Source: Oscillospiraceae bacterium (GTDB lineage Bacteria; Bacillota; Clostridia; Oscillospirales; Oscillospiraceae). From it: a stretch of DNA of 64,000 bases. Below the pieces are notes generated by a model. It did not search any database. It was not told the origin of the DNA and worked only from the letters and a program-made list of their open reading frames with translations. The translations under genes were made by a program, and so were the position numbers. Of this stretch, positions 47,960 to 55,069 are shown piece after piece (the first letter of the stretch is position 1; the number at the start of each line of letters is the position of its first letter). The stretch lies in assembly GCA_022800215.1 (NCBI GenBank), contig JAAWPV010000002.1, positions 55,191-119,190 on the forward strand, in the 5' to 3' direction.

Positions 47960-49168
47960 TTATGGATTGGGCTCCAGGGGCTGCACAATGGCGTGGAGCT
48001 GAGCGGGGGAGTGGGGATACTGCCGGGTGAAGGATTTCAAAATACGGTCACAGACCATGCAGCTATTCTCGTAGTTGGCCTGAGGCAGCAGGAAGACAAA
48101 CTGAGATACGCTGCACCGGGCGGCTACGTCGCCCTTTCGGAGACCGGCGCAGATAAGTTCCTGAAGGTTTTCCACCACCCGGTCCAGGCTGCGGCGGGGA
48201 AGCTCCTTGCCGTCGGGGCCGGAGATGGAGAGCAGGGCCAGGTGGACGGCATCGCCGCTCCGGGCCACCGCCCGGGCGAAGCACTGGTAGATGGCCTTGA
48301 AAACATCATAATCACAAAGCAGTGCGCCGCTGCCGCTGTTTGTCTCCCGAAGCTGCTCCAGAATAACGCCGGAAGAAACAGTGTGGTCATTGACGGTGCG
48401 AATGGCCTCCCGATAGAGGGACAACATCTCATCGGAGGGCATGACCCCAAACTGTGTCAACAGAAGCTCGCTCATATCCTCATAGACCTTGACGGCAGAG
48501 TTTTGCTCCCCCAGCTGGATCTGGGCATTCATTAAATACCGATAGAGCTCCTCCATGTAAGGATCCTGCCCAAGGACCCCGCGGCAGAGGGAGATGATGT
48601 CCTGCCAGCGCCGCTGCTTTTCCAGTAGGGACAGGGTTTCCAGGGCCATCTGGATGTAAAGGTTGTGGTAGTGGGCGGCAATGGGGACCACCCAAGGCTC
48701 GGCGGACAGCTTGGAGAGGAATTCCCCTTGGTAAACATTCAGGGCTTCCAGCCAAAAATTCAGCCGTTCGGCAGGCGCCTTGGTCTGAATACCAGCCTGA
48801 TAGAGCGCGTCAAAGCGGTCAATATCCAGGTTCAGGGGGATATCGGTATTCCAGGCGTAAGTGCCTTCCCGCCGGAGTATCAAAGTCCGCCCGGCCCTTT
48901 CGTCCAACTGGCTGAGAGCCGTCCGGGCCCGGTGAAACATGGTTTTCAGTGCGTTGGCGGGGTTGGAGCTGCGACCGTCTTCTCCCCAAAGGAGGGAGAT
49001 CAATTCTTCTGGTGGAATGGGGCGGCTGCGGTAGTAGATCATATAGGCAAGCAAAAGCCAGACCTTCCGGGTCCGGTTGTCGCTGTCGTTGATCTCAGCG
49101 GAACCCAGCTGAATGGAGAATTCCCCCAGAAAATTGATGTTGATAGGTGTGGCTGTCTTTTCTGTCAC
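47960..49168 (-). CDS. BTAD-domain transcriptional regulator with degenerate GGDEF C-terminus
   Basis: The 402-residue product begins with an OmpR-like winged helix (about 10-110; 'INFLGEFSIQLGSAEINDSDNRTRKVWLLLAYM'), continues with a bacterial transcriptional activation (TPR-like) domain (about 115-260; 'LLEKQRRWQDIISLCRGVLGQDPYMEELYRYLM') and ends with a region shaped like GGDEF ('LRKGDVAARCSVSQFVFLLP') where CSVSQF stands in place of the GGDEF motif. It therefore cannot be a cyclase and may only bind a nucleotide or partner. First gene of the signalling block. Confidence 0.85.
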   Translation of the reverse strand: MTEKTATPININFLGEFSIQLGSAEINDSDNRTRKVWLLLAYMIYYRSRPIPPEELISLLWGEDGRSSNPANALKTMFHRARTALSQLDERAGRTLILRREGTYAWNTDIPLNLDIDRFDALYQAGIQTKAPAERLNFWLEALNVYQGEFLSKLSAEPWVVPIAAHYHNLYIQMALETLSLLEKQRRWQDIISLCRGVLGQDPYMEELYRYLMNAQIQLGEQNSAVKVYEDMSELLLTQFGVMPSDEMLSLYREAIRTVNDHTVSSGVILEQLRETNSGSGALLCDYDVFKAIYQCFARAVARSGDAVHLALLSISGPDGKELPRRSLDRVVENLQELICAGLRKGDVAARCSVSQFVFLLPQANYENSCMVCDRILKSFTRQYPHSPAQLHAIVQPLEPNP

Positions 49169-49248: not shown

Positions 49249-49436
49249 ATTGAAACTACGGGGAAAAGTCGTATGTTACAAAACAAAATAAAAAAAGAAA
49301 ATTTTTTTCAAAAAAGTACTTCCATTTCCCGGAGCAATGTGTTATACTGATGGCGAAACCGGAAGAGAAGACTGGTATGAAATACGTCAAAACTTATATT
49401 ATTCACTCCGACAAGATGATGATAGAGGTGTGAAAT

Positions 49437-50420
49437 ATGAAAAAAATCAAACAAATTTTACCGTTTGCGCTTGCGCTGGCCTTGCTGGCCGGATGCGCTG
49501 CGGGAGCAGCGGTTCCGGAGGACCCTATTTTTGCGGAGCAAGTAGAACTGGAGGAGGTAGAGCTGGAGGCGGAGGCCGTGGCTTTGGCTGATGTACCGGC
49601 TCTCCACGACCTGCTGGTGCCTGTAGCTTCGGGGACGCAGGTGAAGAAGAGCGCAAAGGCCCAGATCGACTATTCCAATATCACTGACGGCTATGTGATG
49701 GCCCAGTACACCACCGCTACCGAGAACCGGGTGAAGGTAAAGATCGTGAGTCCTTCTGACAACAACGACTATTACCAGTACAATCTGACCCCGGGAGTAT
49801 GGACCGCATTCCCTTTGTCTGACGGCAATGGGGAGTATAAGGTGTCTGTTCTGGAGCTGAACCCCGCCACCGGAAAGTATGCAGTTCTGGTTTCTGTAAC
49901 GGTTAATGTGACGCTGAAAGACGAGTTTGCGCCCTTTGTCCGGCCAAACCAATATGTGGATTATGCCGGCCAGACCAATACCATCGCAAAGGCGGAGGAG
50001 CTCATCGGAAACGAAACGGATACGCTGAAGAAAGTGGAGAAGGTCTATAAGTATGTGGTGGAAAATCTGACCTATGACAAGGAGAAGGCTGCTACTGTCC
50101 AATCTGGCTATCTCCCTGTGCTGGACACTGTACTGGCGGAGAAAAAAGGGATCTGCTTCGATTATGCCGCACTCATGGTGGGGATGCTTCGCTCTCAGGG
50201 GGTCCCTTGCAAATTGGTGGTAGGTTACGCCGGAACCGCCTACCACGCCTGGGTCAATGTCTGGAGCGAGGAGACCGGGTGGGTCACCGCCGCCATCTAC
50301 TTTGACGGCACTACCTGGCAGCGGATGGACCCCACCTTTGCTTCCTCCTCCAACAGCAGCGACGCCATCATGAAGTATATCGGCGACGGCTCCAACTACT
50401 CTGTGAAGTACCTTTATTAA
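49437..50420 (+). CDS. Transglutaminase-like domain lipoprotein
   Basis: The 327-residue product has a lipoprotein signal (LALLAGCAAG, Cys about 20), a long acidic linker and a beta domain, then a transglutaminase-like core (about 185-300). The triad is visible: Cys in KKGICFDYAALMVGMLRSQG, His in AYHAWVNVW and Asp in QRMDPTFAS. Such exported domains usually act as cysteine proteases or cross-linkers of surface proteins. It lies between the signalling block and the filament operon. Confidence 0.88.
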   Translation: MKKIKQILPFALALALLAGCAAGAAVPEDPIFAEQVELEEVELEAEAVALADVPALHDLLVPVASGTQVKKSAKAQIDYSNITDGYVMAQYTTATENRVKVKIVSPSDNNDYYQYNLTPGVWTAFPLSDGNGEYKVSVLELNPATGKYAVLVSVTVNVTLKDEFAPFVRPNQYVDYAGQTNTIAKAEELIGNETDTLKKVEKVYKYVVENLTYDKEKAATVQSGYLPVLDTVLAEKKGICFDYAALMVGMLRSQGVPCKLVVGYAGTAYHAWVNVWSEETGWVTAAIYFDGTTWQRMDPTFASSSNSSDAIMKYIGDGSNYSVKYLY

Positions 50421-50472
50421 AAGCCTATGTGGCGGAATTCTTTTCTCCGGCCACAAGATATGGAAAAAACTC

Positions 50473-50533
50473 TTTACGAATGACCCCAAATGGGTTAAAA
50501 TGGACTTGCGGTTTTTGCCGCAAGTCCATTTTT
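50473..50533 (+). promoter_or_regulatory. Terminator overlapped by the promoter of the filament operon
   Basis: AAAATGGACTTGCGG and CCGCAAGTCCATTTTT (50497-50533) form a strong terminator for the transglutaminase gene. TTTACG (50473-50478), 17 bp and TAAAAT (50496-50501) form a promoter whose -10 box is part of the first stem arm. Upstream transcripts should end where the filament operon transcript starts. Confidence 0.6.
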
Positions 50534-50553
50534 AAGTTGATGTGGGGGATCAT

Positions 50554-51594
50554 ATGAGAAAAATACTGTCCAATCAGGAGATTTCCTCCCTCTGTTTGGA
50601 GCTTTCCATGCTGCTCCATGCCGGTGTGATGGTGGGAGACGCGCTGACTTTGCTCAGTGAGGAAAGTGATAAAGAATACCGGGATATGCTTGAGACTATG
50701 GCCCGGAAGGTGGACGACGGTGCTTCCCTGGCTTCTGTGCTGCGGGACACCGGCCGGTTCCCCGTCTATGTCTGCGGCCTTGTGGAGGTGGGCGAAACTG
50801 CGGGCCGGACCGAAGAAGCCCTGGCCGCCCTGGCCGCCTACTACGAAAGCCGGGTCCGTACTGACCGCCGGACTAAGAGCGCCCTTCTGTACCCTGCGGT
50901 GATGCTGGTTTTGATGCTGGTGGTCATCGGTGTGCTTTTGGTGAAGGTGCTGCCCATTTTTGACGGCGTCTATACCTCTCTGGGCGGACGGCTCACCGGT
51001 GTGGCTGGTGGTCTGCTTTTGCTGGGCCGGGGGCTCAGCACTGTTATGCCTGTGCTGTGGGGAGTCCTCATTCTGGCGGTCCTGTTTTTGGTGGGCTTCA
51101 CTGCTGCCGATGGTTTCCGGGAAAAGGTCATGGTCTTCTGGCGGAAGTGCTTTGGTGATAAGGGCGTCAGCCGGAAGCTGAACGACGCCCGTCTGGCCCA
51201 GGCCCTTGCCATGGGGATGGCCAGCGGCCTTTTGATTGAGGAAGCTCTGGCACTTAGCGTCGGTCTTCTGGAGGATGCTCCCGGGGCCAAGGCCCGGTGC
51301 GTGGATTGCCAGAGCCGGATGGAGAACGGCTCTGCTATGGGGGAGGCTATGAAGGGCAGCGGCCTGTTCCCGGCCAGCGCCTGCCGGCTTCTGGAGCTTG
51401 GCCAGCGCAGCGGCTCCGCAGACACCACTATGGCCAAGATCGCGGTTGATCTGGAGGAGGAGGGCGAAGCTGCCCTGGAGGAAGTGGTGAGCCGTGTGGA
51501 GCCGGCGTTGGTCCTGGTCTGCTCGGTACTGGTAGGTCTTATTCTCCTCTCGGTGATGCTGCCGCTCATGAACATCATGTCGGCCATCGGGTAA
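50554..51594 (+). CDS. GspF/PilC-type inner-membrane platform protein
   Basis: The ATG at 50554 (MRKILSNQEISSLCLELSML) follows GGGGGAT and gives 346 residues. Two T2SSF repeats are seen: 'ELSMLLHAGVMVGDALTLL' with 'GLVEVGETAGRTEEALAALAAYYE', and 'ARLAQALAMGMASGLLIEEAL' with 'LELGQRSGSADTTMAKIA'. Membrane segments lie near 113-137, 150-185 and at the C-terminus. Such proteins anchor pilus or type II secretion assembly. Length is slightly below PilC (about 400). First gene of the filament operon. Confidence 0.9.
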   Translation: MRKILSNQEISSLCLELSMLLHAGVMVGDALTLLSEESDKEYRDMLETMARKVDDGASLASVLRDTGRFPVYVCGLVEVGETAGRTEEALAALAAYYESRVRTDRRTKSALLYPAVMLVLMLVVIGVLLVKVLPIFDGVYTSLGGRLTGVAGGLLLLGRGLSTVMPVLWGVLILAVLFLVGFTAADGFREKVMVFWRKCFGDKGVSRKLNDARLAQALAMGMASGLLIEEALALSVGLLEDAPGAKARCVDCQSRMENGSAMGEAMKGSGLFPASACRLLELGQRSGSADTTMAKIAVDLEEEGEAALEEVVSRVEPALVLVCSVLVGLILLSVMLPLMNIMSAIG

Positions 51595-51598
51595 TGCC

Positions 51599-51916
51599 AT
51601 GAAAAGAAGAAAATCGCCTTGGGCCAGTGCACTCCAAAGCCTCTTGATGCCGGTGGCGGCTCTGGCTCTACTGCTCTGTTTTACGATTGCCATCGGCAAC
51701 ATGGAGGATGGACGGAATGCTGAAAGCCTTCGCCAGCTGGAAGAGGCCATTCACCGCAGTTGTATAGCCTGCTATGCCACTGAAGGGATTTACCCTCCTG
51801 ATATTGCCTACTTGCAGGACCGCTACGGTCTTCAGGTAGATGAGGAGCATTACATTGTGCATTACGAAATTTTTGCGCCCAACATGATGCCTGACGTCAC
51901 AGTATTGGAAAAGTAA
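51599..51916 (+). CDS. Pilin-like single-TM protein
   Basis: The 105-residue product has a basic N-terminus, one hydrophobic helix (about 12-32) and a short extracytoplasmic domain with two cysteines ('RSCIACYATEGIYPPDIAYLQDRYGLQV'). The EGIYPPDI pattern resembles the 'G.YP..L' turn of GspG-type pseudopilins and type IV pilins. There is no classical G-F-x4-E prepilin peptidase site. It is the best candidate for the main filament subunit, by position and pattern only. Confidence 0.65.
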   Translation: MKRRKSPWASALQSLLMPVAALALLLCFTIAIGNMEDGRNAESLRQLEEAIHRSCIACYATEGIYPPDIAYLQDRYGLQVDEEHYIVHYEIFAPNMMPDVTVLEK

Positions 51917-51919
51917 AAC

Positions 51920-52408
51920 ATGAAAAAGAAAGCCGATGCTATAAAACATCATATGGATACCTTGGCGGCACTGCTGCTGTTCGGGGTTTTTGCGGTGTGC
52001 GTGCTGGCGGTCCTGCTGACCGGCGCGGACGCCTATCGGCGGCTGACGGAGCGGGACCGGGAGGCCTATGACCGCCGCTCCTGCGTCCAGTACATCGCCA
52101 CCCGAGTCCGCCAGTCCGATGCCGCCGGAGGCATTGGGGTGGAGCCCTTCGGCGACACCACGGCCCTGGTGCTTGGAGAGGGCGATTTTGTCACCCGTGT
52201 ATACTGCTATGAGGGCTATATTATGGAGCTGTACTGTGCCGCCGGTGACACGGAGCTGACCCCCCGGGATGGGGAACGGGTCATGGAGGCCGACTCCATG
52301 GATGCCTACCTGACGGACGGGCTTTTACAGATCATAGTGGTGGATCCCAACTATCAGTATGACTCCATGGTCCTGTCCCTGCGCAGCGGAGAGGGGGGAG
52401 CGGCATGA
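51920..52408 (+). CDS. DUF4860-like pseudopilin-type protein
   Basis: The 162-residue product has one helix (about 15-36) after a basic start (MKKKADAIKHHMDTLAALLL), followed by 'DREAYDRRSCVQYIATRVRQSDAAGGIGVEPFGDTTALVLGEGDFVTRVYCYEGYI', which fits the DUF4860 family found in Clostridia pilus-like loci. No clear prepilin cleavage motif. It overlaps the next gene by 4 bp. Confidence 0.7.
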   Translation: MKKKADAIKHHMDTLAALLLFGVFAVCVLAVLLTGADAYRRLTERDREAYDRRSCVQYIATRVRQSDAAGGIGVEPFGDTTALVLGEGDFVTRVYCYEGYIMELYCAAGDTELTPRDGERVMEADSMDAYLTDGLLQIIVVDPNYQYDSMVLSLRSGEGGAA

Positions 52409-52872
52409 AAAGCAAAGCGCCCCTTTCCTTGATGGAACAGATGGTGATGCTGCTGGTATTCGCCCTGGCCGCCGCCCTGTGCCTCCAGACTTTTGTAAAA
52501 AGTGACCGGATCTCCCGGGAGAGTGAAGCTCGGGACCGGGCGGCATTGCTGTGCCAGTCGGTGGCCGAGGCCGTCCGCCATAACGGCGGGGACCTGGAGG
52601 CAGCCATGACCCAGGTCAATGGGCGTGAACCCTTCCAGCGGGAGGGGTTCGGCTGGTTCGCGGGCTATGATGAAAGCTGGGTGCTTCTGGACGAGGGAAC
52701 TGTGGACAGACCTCAGCACAGCAGCTATACCCTCCGGATCATGGAGCTGGACAGCGGCCTGGAGGGCCTGGGTAAAGCCAATGTGGAAGCTTTTGCCTGG
52801 AACGGCGGGACCATGGAGTCTCTCTTTGCCATTGAAGTCTCCTGGCAGAAGGGGGTGGGCGGTCATGGCTAA
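52405..52872 (+). CDS. Pseudopilin-like single-TM protein
   Basis: The 155-residue product starts MKSKAPLSLMEQMVMLLVFA. LSLMEQ followed by a hydrophobic helix (about 12-28) imitates the mature pilin start with Glu at position 5, but the residue before the putative cleavage is Pro, not Gly. The rest is an exported beta-rich domain. Overlaps both neighbours (4 and 8 bp). Confidence 0.65.
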   Translation: MKSKAPLSLMEQMVMLLVFALAAALCLQTFVKSDRISRESEARDRAALLCQSVAEAVRHNGGDLEAAMTQVNGREPFQREGFGWFAGYDESWVLLDEGTVDRPQHSSYTLRIMELDSGLEGLGKANVEAFAWNGGTMESLFAIEVSWQKGVGGHG

Positions 52873-53281
52873 AAAGGACAAAGGTTCCTTCGCCCCTCCG
52901 GCCCTGGGAGGCATCTCCCTGTTGGTGGTCTTCGCAGTCCTCTGTCTGACGGTATTTGCCCTTCTGAGCCTCAGTACCGTCCGGGCTGATGAACGGCTCA
53001 GCGACGCTTCTGCCCAGGCGGTGAAGAACTATTATGCCGCCGACTGCAAGGCCCAGGAGCTCCTGGCCCGGCTCCGGTTCGGGGAGACTCCGGAGGAGGT
53101 CTGGACTGACGGTAGTCTCTGTGGCTATACGATACCCATTTCGGATACCCAAGAGCTTCAAGTGGAGGTGGAGATCCGGACCACGAACGATTATACCATC
53201 CTCCGCTGGCAGGCAGTGCCCATTGGGGAGTGGGGGTTGGATGAGGGTCTGGACCTTTGGGACGGCGAAACACTTTTTTAA
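52865..53281 (+). CDS. Pseudopilin/PilX-like single-TM protein
   Basis: From the ATG at 52865 (MAKKDKGSFAPPALGGISLL) the product has 138 residues with a helix at about 14-38 and 'RLSDASAQAVKNYYAADCKAQELLARLR', a pattern like the amphipathic helix of PilX/GspK-type minor pilins. The ORF-track frame begins much too early. Overlaps the upstream gene by 8 bp; a 39-bp gap leads to the ATPase gene. Confidence 0.65.
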   Translation: MAKKDKGSFAPPALGGISLLVVFAVLCLTVFALLSLSTVRADERLSDASAQAVKNYYAADCKAQELLARLRFGETPEEVWTDGSLCGYTIPISDTQELQVEVEIRTTNDYTILRWQAVPIGEWGLDEGLDLWDGETLF

Positions 53282-53320
53282 GAGAGAACAACGATACTTT
53301 TTAGAGAGAAGGAACCTGAT

Positions 53321-54379
53321 ATGGCACAACTTCTGGATTATTTGAAGCAAGCGGTGGCGGACGGTGCCTCTGACCTTTTCATCGTTGCCGGCGGTCCGGT
53401 GAGCGAGAAGCTGGATAAGCGGCTGCGGCCCATCAGTGGGGAGAGGGTCTATCCGCAGGAGACCAGCCAGCTCATCGCTGAGCTTTACGGCCAGGCCGGC
53501 CGGCCTATGGAGCCGTTCCTGAAGCGGGGGGATGATGACTTTTCCTTTTCAGTGCCCGGTCTGGCCCGGTTCCGGGTGAATGCTTACCGTCAGCGGGGCT
53601 CTTTGGCTGCGGTGGTCCGGGTGGTGGCCTTTGATATTCCCGACTATCTGGAGCTGGGGATCCCCAGCGACGTGCTGGATCTGGCTGACGTACAGCACGG
53701 TATGATCCTGGTCACCGGCACGGCGGGCAGCGGAAAATCTACCACCCAGGCCTGTATCATCGACCGGATCAACCGGACGAGGGAGTGCCACATCATCACC
53801 CTGGAGGATCCCATTGAATACCTCCACCGGAACCAGCGAAGCATTGTCTCCCAGCGTGAGATTGCCATTGATACCGAGGGGCACCTTTCCGCTCTTCGGG
53901 CCTGTCTCCGCCAGGCCCCGGATGTGATCCTTCTGGGGGAGATGCGGGATCATGAGACCATCCGTACCGCCATGACCGCTGCCGAGACGGGCCATTTGCT
54001 CATCGCCACCCTTCACACCAAGGGAACGGTGAACACCATCGACCGGATCGTGGATTCCTTCCCCAGCGCCCAGCAGGGCCAGGTCCGGGTGCAGCTGAGT
54101 ATGGTGCTTCATACAGTGGTGTCCCAGCAGCTTCTGCCCAGCACCAGCGGCGGACTGGTGCCCGCCTTTGAGATCATGCATATGAACAGTGCCATCCGCA
54201 GCATGATCCGGGAGAGCAAAACCCACCAGATCGACTCCGCCATTGTGGCCGGCAGCGGTGAGGGCATGATCACGATGGAGCAGTCCATCCTGAACCTGTA
54301 CCGGGCGGGGGAGATCACTGCGGAAACCGCCCTCAGTTACTCCGACAACCCGGATCAGCTTCGGCGCCATATGCGGTAA
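53321..54379 (+). CDS. PilT-like type IV filament ATPase
   Basis: The 352-residue protein is a secretion ATPase of the PilT group: 'GASDLFIVAGGPVSEKLDKRLRPI' (N2D region), Walker A GTAGSGKST (about 132), 'ITLEDPIEYLH' (Asp box), Walker B VILLGEMRD (about 201) and the His box ATLHT (about 229). PilT normally powers retraction; here it is the only ATPase in the operon and might power both directions. Last gene of the operon; no hairpin terminator is evident directly after it. Confidence 0.92.
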   Translation: MAQLLDYLKQAVADGASDLFIVAGGPVSEKLDKRLRPISGERVYPQETSQLIAELYGQAGRPMEPFLKRGDDDFSFSVPGLARFRVNAYRQRGSLAAVVRVVAFDIPDYLELGIPSDVLDLADVQHGMILVTGTAGSGKSTTQACIIDRINRTRECHIITLEDPIEYLHRNQRSIVSQREIAIDTEGHLSALRACLRQAPDVILLGEMRDHETIRTAMTAAETGHLLIATLHTKGTVNTIDRIVDSFPSAQQGQVRVQLSMVLHTVVSQQLLPSTSGGLVPAFEIMHMNSAIRSMIRESKTHQIDSAIVAGSGEGMITMEQSILNLYRAGEITAETALSYSDNPDQLRRHMR

Positions 54380-54477
54380 TGTACAAGCTGCACAAAAATG
54401 AAACGAAAAATTTATGAAAAATCACAACAAGCTTTTGAAAGAAAAAGTGGAAAATGTAACCGGTTTTGTAACCGACG

Positions 54478-54610
54478 TATGTTATAATAGCTTATAACCG
54501 CCGCACAAAGTGCCGATTATAGCTATTGCAACAATAGCAAAACCAGCTACGCTGGTTTTGCCGCGAAAGCGGCGCAAGTTGCTTTGCAACTTGTAGCTAT
54601 GTTATAATAG
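54478..54610 (+). repeat. Hairpin-rich repeat flanked by TATGTTATAATAG direct repeats
   Basis: The 13-mer TATGTTATAATAG occurs at 54478-54490 and 54598-54610. Between them lie four consecutive hairpins: GCTATTG/CAATAGC (54522-54538), GCAAAACCAGC/GCTGGTTTTGC (54537-54561), GCCGC/GCGGC with a GAAA loop (54560-54573) and CAAGTTGC/GCAACTTG (54575-54593). ATTATAGCTA at the left end is mirrored by TAGCTAT...ATAAT at the right. It resembles a MITE or REP-type mobile repeat that brings TATAAT boxes. The rest of 54380-54640 is AT-rich and has no gene. Confidence 0.7.
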
Positions 54611-54640
54611 GCGCAGAATATAAGAAGGGAGGCGGCTGAG

Positions 54641-55069
54641 ATGCAGGAACGGATCCGTGGAAACGAATACCGCACCACAGTGGTCTGTGTGGATTCCTAT
54701 CACCGGGGTATTCCGGTGGGGCGCTTTTATAATCCCAGCTGCAAGGAAGGAAAAAGCTTTGAGAGCTTAAGTCAGCTTCTTGTCAGAATGGAGGACATGC
54801 TGGACGACATGAAGTTCCCCCAGTCCTTCACAATGGCCAGGACCTTCGGTTCCTCTGTCTCCATTGGGACTGAGGGGACCTCCGGACAGGGTCAGAAGCA
54901 GAGCGGGCAGTTGGCTACCTTCGCGGTGCGGGTCCTTTTCCGGCAGAACGCCAGCTGGCAGGGTGAGGTCACCTGGCTGGAAGGCAAGCGGGAGGAGAGC
55001 TTCCGCAGCGTGCTGGAGTTGATCCTGTTGATGGACGGCGCCTTGCAGGAGAGCATGGGGACCAACTGA
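54641..55069 (+). CDS. Conserved protein of unknown function
   Basis: The ATG at 54641 follows GGGAGGCGG. The 142-residue soluble protein alternates strands and helices ('EYRTTVVCVDSYHRGIPVGRFYNP', 'FESLSQLLVRMEDMLDDMKFPQSF', 'ATFAVRVLFRQNASWQGEVTWLEG'). I do not recognise the family. The -10 box from the upstream repeat (TATAAT at 54603) with TTGCTT 18 bp before it could drive this gene. A terminator follows. Confidence 0.75.
   Translation: MQERIRGNEYRTTVVCVDSYHRGIPVGRFYNPSCKEGKSFESLSQLLVRMEDMLDDMKFPQSFTMARTFGSSVSIGTEGTSGQGQKQSGQLATFAVRVLFRQNASWQGEVTWLEGKREESFRSVLELILLMDGALQESMGTN

Follow-up and report, generated by a model that had tools for sequence, protein, structure and literature searches.

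Can a machine of the type IV filament superfamily work when its subunits are not cleaved? This question is raised by an operon at 50554-54379, on the forward strand of a 64,000-nucleotide stretch of DNA from an Oscillospiraceae bacterium (the whole stretch is called the window here). The operon encodes a GspF/PilC-type platform, four small pilin-like proteins and one PilT-family ATPase, and prepilins invariably carry a class III leader and require both a peptidase and an extension ATPase (PMC10191384). We compared this cassette with its relatives in 151 genomes of the same family (the family survey) and in 399 genomes of the phylum (the phylum survey). On balance, we lean towards a reduced type IV filament machine that works independently of a peptidase and has a transglutaminase-like surface protein dedicated to it, in which a tip complex whose subunits keep their leaders would be moved by PilT through GspF.

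Composition and conservation of the cassette

The six open reading frames run in one direction, separated by gaps of 4 and 3 nucleotides (nt), overlaps of 4 and 8 nt and then 39 nt, and all of them lie where the initial annotation, made from the window's sequence, had placed six tightly spaced genes. Two of its other assignments were confirmed by profile searches. The first gene encodes a GspF/PilC-type membrane platform of 346 amino acids (50554..51594; PF00482 twice, E = 4.6e-40; TIGR02120, 165 bits), the sole T2SSF protein of the source genome. The last encodes a PilT-family retraction-type ATPase of 352 amino acids (53321..54379), whose 406 bits against TIGR01420 (PilT/PilU family) exceed the cut-off of 319 by 87 bits and which matches the solved PilT 2gsz (phmmer, E = 1.6e-96); Walker A (GTAGSGKSTT), Walker B (ILLGEMRD) and the intact signature AIRSMIRE (AIRNLIRE in 2gsz) all align.

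Between them lie P2 (51599..51916, 105 amino acids, with an EGxYPPxxxYL turn), the DUF4860 subunit (51920..52408, 162 amino acids), P4 (52405..52872, 155 amino acids) and P5 (52865..53281, 138 amino acids). The DUF4860 subunit is the only one of the four with a Pfam family (PF16152, 64 bits), in agreement with the initial annotation. Searched singly against Pfam and NCBIfam, P2, P4 and P5 had no significant family match, the best being XpsI for P4 (E = 0.0015), and P5 had sub-threshold matches to ComGG (E = 0.08) and PilX_N (E = 1.7). Because no model matched P5, its label as PilX-like comes from position and comparison. A shared promoter, also proposed at first, did not hold up: the 4 promoter-like sites in 49250-54700, compared with 2.3 +/- 1.5 in shuffles, are no better than chance.

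Using profiles made from the window proteins, we compared 52 loci, the window included. The order GspF-P2-DUF4860-P4-P5-PilT was found in 44 of them, across several families. The eight off-pattern loci comprise three truncated by a contig end (L064, L067 and L068), a complete type IV pilus (T4P) locus with PilB, PilT, GspF, several pilins and, further on, PilD (L066, genome G032), a locus with PilT first and PilD directly after P5 (L080, genome G357) and three with no PilT after P5 (L040, L070 and L081). DUF4860 was present in 38 of the 151 genomes of the family survey (37 of 106 genera) and in 14 of the 399 of the phylum survey. At least 558 relatives turned up when GTDB genomes were scanned with the P2 family; among the best 80, the named Bacillota loci examined here (Oscillibacter, Flavonifractor, Pseudoflavonifractor, Flintibacter, Lawsonibacter, Colidextribacter, Dysosmobacter, Parablautia, Emergencia and uncultured relatives), all six genes were present in 77. 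Together with the transglutaminase-like gene described below, the cassette is a conserved seven-gene machine common to many gut bacteria. No phage record encoded the GspI-like protein (P4). At locus L057, in a one-contig genome of 4.3 Mb (G078), the P2 frame spans 567 amino acids and is fused to a large extra region.

Absence of a prepilin peptidase, PilB and a major pilin

The source genome is 78% complete, and the peptidase claim is therefore carried by the survey of 151 genomes and not by absence from the source genome, in which PF01478 had no match even at E = 10. The initial annotation had seen no prepilin peptidase, and the survey agreed. PF01478 occurred in 45 of the 151 genomes, independently of the operon (13 of 38 genomes with it and 32 of 113 without it, p = 0.54). 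It was absent from 25 of the 37 minimal-operon genomes, 14 of which are at least 90% complete (99% for G074, 100% for G080 and G091), and was also absent from five of nine named carriers, mostly isolates. Cultured carriers with no A24 peptidase include Oscillibacter sp. 1-3, Flintibacter muris DSM 110149, Pseudoflavonifractor phocaeensis An901 and Colidextribacter sp. OB.20. When the search for A24 peptidases was extended to E = 10 in 51 operon genomes, nothing was found in 19, and nine more yielded only sub-threshold fragments (E values of 0.017-0.37).

The peptidase-less carriers had no counterpart of GspE, GspG or GspO (no second T2SSE-type ATPase, no canonical prepilin of PF07963 and no PF01478). 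Neither they nor the source genome had an ATPase in the PilB range, that is, about 150-250 bits, and such matches were found solely in genomes with classic T4P loci. Each had one GspF, except G065 with three matches, and no complete T4P locus was found elsewhere in them. Outside full T4P loci, a search for PilM was uninformative, with partial matches to other actin-like ATPases.

These results bear on whether the operon might encode a conventional type IV pilus whose PilD, PilB and major pilin are supplied by another locus. An A24 peptidase is present in 12 of the 37 minimal-operon genomes, some of which have full T4P loci, and MSH loci lack a peptidase of their own and coexist with systems that have one elsewhere in the genome (PMC6668835). 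However, the other 25 genomes hold nothing to borrow. A borrowed peptidase was rejected by the co-occurrence test, and the borrowing explanation as a whole, which the survey comes close to refuting, seems to us very improbable.

Loss of the cleavage site and retention of Glu5

When P4 (GspI/PilV-like) was aligned at the pilin Glu5, Glu stood in 53 of 54 rows. At -1, only 6 of the 49 minimal-operon rows had Gly or Ala; the residue is Pro in the window (MKSKAP/LSLMEQ, where the slash marks the expected cleavage position) and otherwise nearly random (Pro, Thr, Ser, Asn, Arg, Lys and others). It was neither Gly nor Ala in 26 of 28 peptidase-less rows and in 17 of 21 peptidase-bearing rows, the latter count speaking further against borrowing. 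P4 relatives in PilD loci keep a full G/FTLxE site (KKG/FTLMEV in L066, EKG/FTLVEV in L080). Similarly, the DUF4860 subunit of the cassette has neither a cleavage site nor Glu5; its relatives in L066 and L080 read KKGFTLIEL and GKGYTLVEL, and a homologue in a complete T4P locus reads KKGFTLIELVVAM. P2 has neither a class III site nor Glu5 and has a conserved C/Y/G/P/N motif. P5, like GspK-like caps, has no Glu5; its invariant Gly15 (51 of 51 rows) falls in the alignment column of the -1 Gly of relatives in PilD-bearing loci (KKG/SALVLV and NKG/AASVLV). As judged from these alignments, three of the four subunits have lost the cleavage site.

Gly15 of P5 could be a packing residue or a surviving cleavage site, and P5 may therefore still be processed. 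More broadly, cleavage of the subunits could fall to a peptidase outside A24 or one that is very divergent, or to signal peptidase I, the product being an ordinary though short filament or pseudopilus. The invariant Gly of P5 and the six P4 rows with Gly or Ala are consistent with this explanation, as is the mitochondrial type II secretion system (miT2SS), which also lacks GspO and for which an alternative peptidase is proposed (PMC8134430). The A24 searches at E = 10 argue against it, as do the varied -1 residue of the GspI-like subunit, the two subunits without any site and the lack of any further conserved cassette gene fit to encode a membrane peptidase. We regard continued processing as unlikely, though worth keeping in view.

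An operon without peptidase, PilB and major pilin might also look like a decayed, functionless remnant of a T4P operon. The frames are open, however, and their order is strict across families; the ATPase motifs are intact, Glu5 is almost invariant and all four subunits have conserved motifs. Decay seems to us the least probable explanation, with hardly any chance of being right.

Folds and identities of the small subunits

AlphaFold2 models of P2 and the DUF4860 subunit, built from 48-sequence alignments, predict a pilin fold (a long N-terminal helix and a beta head) for both. The P2 model (predicted local distance difference test [pLDDT], 90.7) has a 56-residue helix (7-62) followed by a two-strand head; the DUF4860 model (pLDDT, 93.4) has a 61-residue helix (5-65) and an eight-strand head. 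Foldseek returned no match to the DUF4860 model below E = 0.001, and XcpW/GspJ (3nje, 5bw0) was the sole family with a probability of 0.98-0.99 over the full length (template modelling score, 0.46-0.48). For P2, weak pilin matches (PilA4, PilE) stood amid noise. The best matches of a P4 profile in the PDB were mostly type IV pilins (PilA, E = 0.004-0.05), and PDB profile searches with P2, DUF4860 and P5 gave nothing useful. Profile searches, which the initial annotation had proposed, thus gave a family for DUF4860 and weak XpsI and PilA matches for P4, and no significant match for P2 or P5.

The H, I, J and K subunits form a tip complex, and non-pilin tip effectors such as PulA have been listed (PMC10191384); in XcpUVWX, K is at the top, I and J are in the middle and H is below (PMC6211770). 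The four cassette subunits most likely occupy these H, I, J and K positions. The J assignment (DUF4860, a GspJ/PilW-like minor pseudopilin) is the best supported and the I assignment (P4), made from Glu5 and weak XpsI/PilV matches, comes next; H and K are assigned by position and missing Glu5, with P2 probably at the GspH/GspG position and P5 as the GspK/PilX/ComGG-like subunit. DUF4860 thereby gains a likely identity as a GspJ-like pilin. We found no paper on DUF4860 in our literature search, which is not proof that none exists.

A transglutaminase-like gene belongs to the operon

The six genes first annotated are real, and a seventh had been missed. On the same strand at 49437..50420, a gene encodes a transglutaminase-like protein of 327 amino acids (PF01841, E = 1.9e-24), a probable lipoprotein with a lipobox-like LLAGC at residues 16-20, a Cys-His-Asp triad (GICFDYA, YHAW and MDPTF) and a C-terminal KYLY. 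In 39 of 52 loci, GspF is preceded on its own strand by a relative at a median distance of 83 nt, and 77 of the 80 named loci have one; some loci seemingly without it are truncated by a contig end or have the gene elsewhere in the genome. Full-length relatives (E < 1e-40) were found in 35 of 37 minimal-operon genomes and in 1 of the other 114 (Fisher test, p = 1e-30). In G027 and G086 the gene is on another contig, and the association therefore goes beyond mere proximity. Across 42 homologues, the triad is conserved in 41, and the C-terminal Tyr, mostly as KYLY, is present in 41. The gene at 49437-50420 belongs to the operon unit, and the DUF4860 machine gains a named partner enzyme.

It could still be that the machine moves something else, serving DNA uptake, adhesion or sensing, and that the transglutaminase is an independent tenant or merely a co-made surface enzyme. 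The observed tie between the enzyme and the machine is indirect, and DNA uptake is a role that minor pilins of the ComG type have in monoderms (PMC10191384). Against this stand the strength of the co-occurrence, which holds without linkage in two genomes, and the recurrent upstream, same-strand position of the gene. We judge this explanation improbable, to about the same degree as continued processing.

The spacer between the transglutaminase gene and gspF contains a terminator-like hairpin on the forward strand (50498..50535; AAAATGGACTTGCGG-TTTTTG-CCGCAAGTCCATTTT; a 16-bp stem, then T), present as a single copy in the window. Of 80 spacers 45 nt or longer, 27 had similar hairpins, often with ATGGGCTTGCGG, compared with 0.1 of 115 single-base-shuffled spacers. 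The hairpin is possibly a read-through attenuator.

Elsewhere in the source genome, on another contig (G000:C43:27255-28013), a second transglutaminase-like gene is 46% identical to that at 49437-50420. About 21 of the 80 named loci (L082-L161) have sortase genes immediately next to the cassette, on one side or the other; PF04203 was present in the two examples tested, and these neighbours suggest a cell-wall setting.

Origin of the cassette PilT

A tree of 93 PilT sequences groups those of the cassette into a single 54-row clade (support, 100/97), separate from the canonical T4P PilTs. The first branch of this clade is L079, whose P4 reads A/FALAE and whose genome has an A24 peptidase match. 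The PilT of the PilD-bearing locus L080 falls among the canonical T4P PilTs, and the placement of two long branches within the cassette clade, L094 and L180, is unsure. The picture suggested is that the cassette arose from a T4P-like ancestor after loss of PilB, PilD and the major pilin.

A proposed machine and its weighing

The proposal made in the initial annotation, a reduced filament machine that has a single PilT-type ATPase and no peptidase, is supported: it would have suffered from a complete T4P locus elsewhere or from small proteins without the long N-terminal pilin helix, but the peptidase-less carriers had no such locus and both of the modelled subunits had the helix. Its further idea, that uncleaved subunits would be assembled or moved by a single ATPase, is a conjecture at this stage, the site being lost in three of four subunits and P5 keeping its Gly at -1. 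The identity of the machine's parts is well supported; we infer its motion and its cargo.

Glu5 is usually credited with two roles: it is held to dock on the platform and to pair with the next subunit's freed N-terminus. In the machine that we envisage, the four subunits would keep their short cationic leaders and remain anchored in the membrane, where they would form a GspHIJK-like tip complex that, with no major pilin, would be unable to grow into a filament. Glu5 of P4 may still dock this complex onto GspF, a contact for which the work of Nivaskumar et al. is said to be relevant, or may pair with the GspK-like P5. PilT would hydrolyse ATP and work GspF, so that the complex would go up and down or turn in place. 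The Klebsiella type II secretion system (T2SS) pseudopilus handles the lipoprotein PulA. Because tips of type IV filaments carry non-pilin effectors, PulA among those listed (PMC10191384), the outer heads might act on the transglutaminase, presenting it or pushing it through the thick wall. The enzyme would then cut or cross-link a surface protein, and the hairpin after its gene may give it a higher level than the machine. Taken together, this suggests that the engine of a pilus has been put to a use other than making a pilus. More specifically, we propose tentatively, and with slightly less than even confidence, a motor that builds no filament, in which a retraction-type ATPase cycles uncleaved membrane tip pilins in place so that they deliver or activate the surface transglutaminase.

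Several points weigh against this proposal. P5 may still be cleaved, and a few P4 rows retain Gly or Ala at -1. No transglutaminase was detected in two of the 37 operon genomes, and a lipobox pattern was present in only 22 of the 42 transglutaminases, so that lipid anchoring may not be universal. Locus L081, in a 100%-complete genome (G466), has GspF, P2, DUF4860, P4 and P5, with no PilT-family ATPase, no A24 peptidase above the cut-off and no transglutaminase at the locus; it is possibly a motorless version of the cassette. PilT is known as a retraction motor, and outward movement is therefore conjectural; indeed, motion, complex formation and contact with the cargo are all steps that we infer.

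If the proposal is true, the machine would be the first in bacteria, among known members of the superfamily, to dispense with prepilin processing, and it would represent a new way of bringing an enzyme to the Gram-positive surface. Site and peptidase are gone while one subunit keeps Glu5, so that the two roles of this residue become separable and testable in cultured strains. The stripped-down pair of platform and PilT also opens a retraction ATPase to study without a filament. Prepilin cleavage is regarded as a universal trait of type IV filaments (PMC10191384), a rule that a common gut-bacterial machine would break.

Flanking features

Divergent from the cassette, on the reverse strand at 47960-49168, is a gene for a BTAD-domain regulator with a weak GGDEF-like C terminus; its relatives flank the cassette in 17 loci, and it may therefore control the cassette. 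Downstream, 54641-55069 encodes an uncharacterised protein of 142 amino acids with no Pfam match; in 12 loci it adjoins the cassette, and the distance to pilT is often no more than 25 nt. About 120 bases that contain strong hairpins (GCAAAACCAGCTACGCTGGTTTTGC, GCCGCGAAAGCGGC), flanked by two copies of TATGTTATAATAG, lie at 54478-54612; this element resembles a small inserted repeat and was found once in the window and in 0 of the fetched loci.

Comparison with known systems

A 2011 survey of Gram-positive pili covers com, pil and tad types, and the cassette is not described in the part available to us (PMC3244431). Our literature search returned nothing on such a cassette in Flavonifractor or Oscillibacter and nothing linking a transglutaminase with pseudopilins, which is not proof of novelty.

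The type IVa pilus of Clostridia (PilB, PilT, PilC, PilD, PilM-O and pilins) shares the PilT and PilC families with the cassette, and DUF4860-type and P4-type subunits occur inside the PilD loci of G032 and G357. In contrast, the cassette has no PilB, PilD or major pilin, and its PilT stands last in the order and belongs to a clade of its own. The Com (ComG) pilus of monoderms is similar in being a small operon with the GspF-like ComGB, four minor pilins and one ATPase; it differs in its PilB-type ComGA, major pilin ComGC and peptidase ComC. The nearest precedent for a missing GspO is the miT2SS, which is T2SS-derived and has no recognisable GspO; its pseudopilin, however, retains maturation features, and it has relatives of GspE, GspD and GspG, whereas the cassette lacks GspE and GspG (PMC8134430).

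The likeness to the T2SS lies in the GspF platform, a GspJ-like DUF4860 subunit, a GspI-like subunit with Glu5, a GspK-like subunit without it and a secreted, probably lipid-anchored partner (the lipoprotein PulA in Klebsiella). Unlike the T2SS, the cassette has no GspE, no major pseudopilin GspG and no GspO; it has a PilT-type ATPase instead, and its cleavage sites are lost. With respect to the superfamily as a whole, it has the GspF/PilC platform, an ATPase of the PilT/VirB11-like hexameric family and a predicted pilin fold, and lacks the A24 peptidase, the extension ATPase (PilB/GspE/ComGA) and the class III leader. The cassette is a new variant within the type IV filament superfamily, by function approximating a T2SS without a growing pseudopilus.

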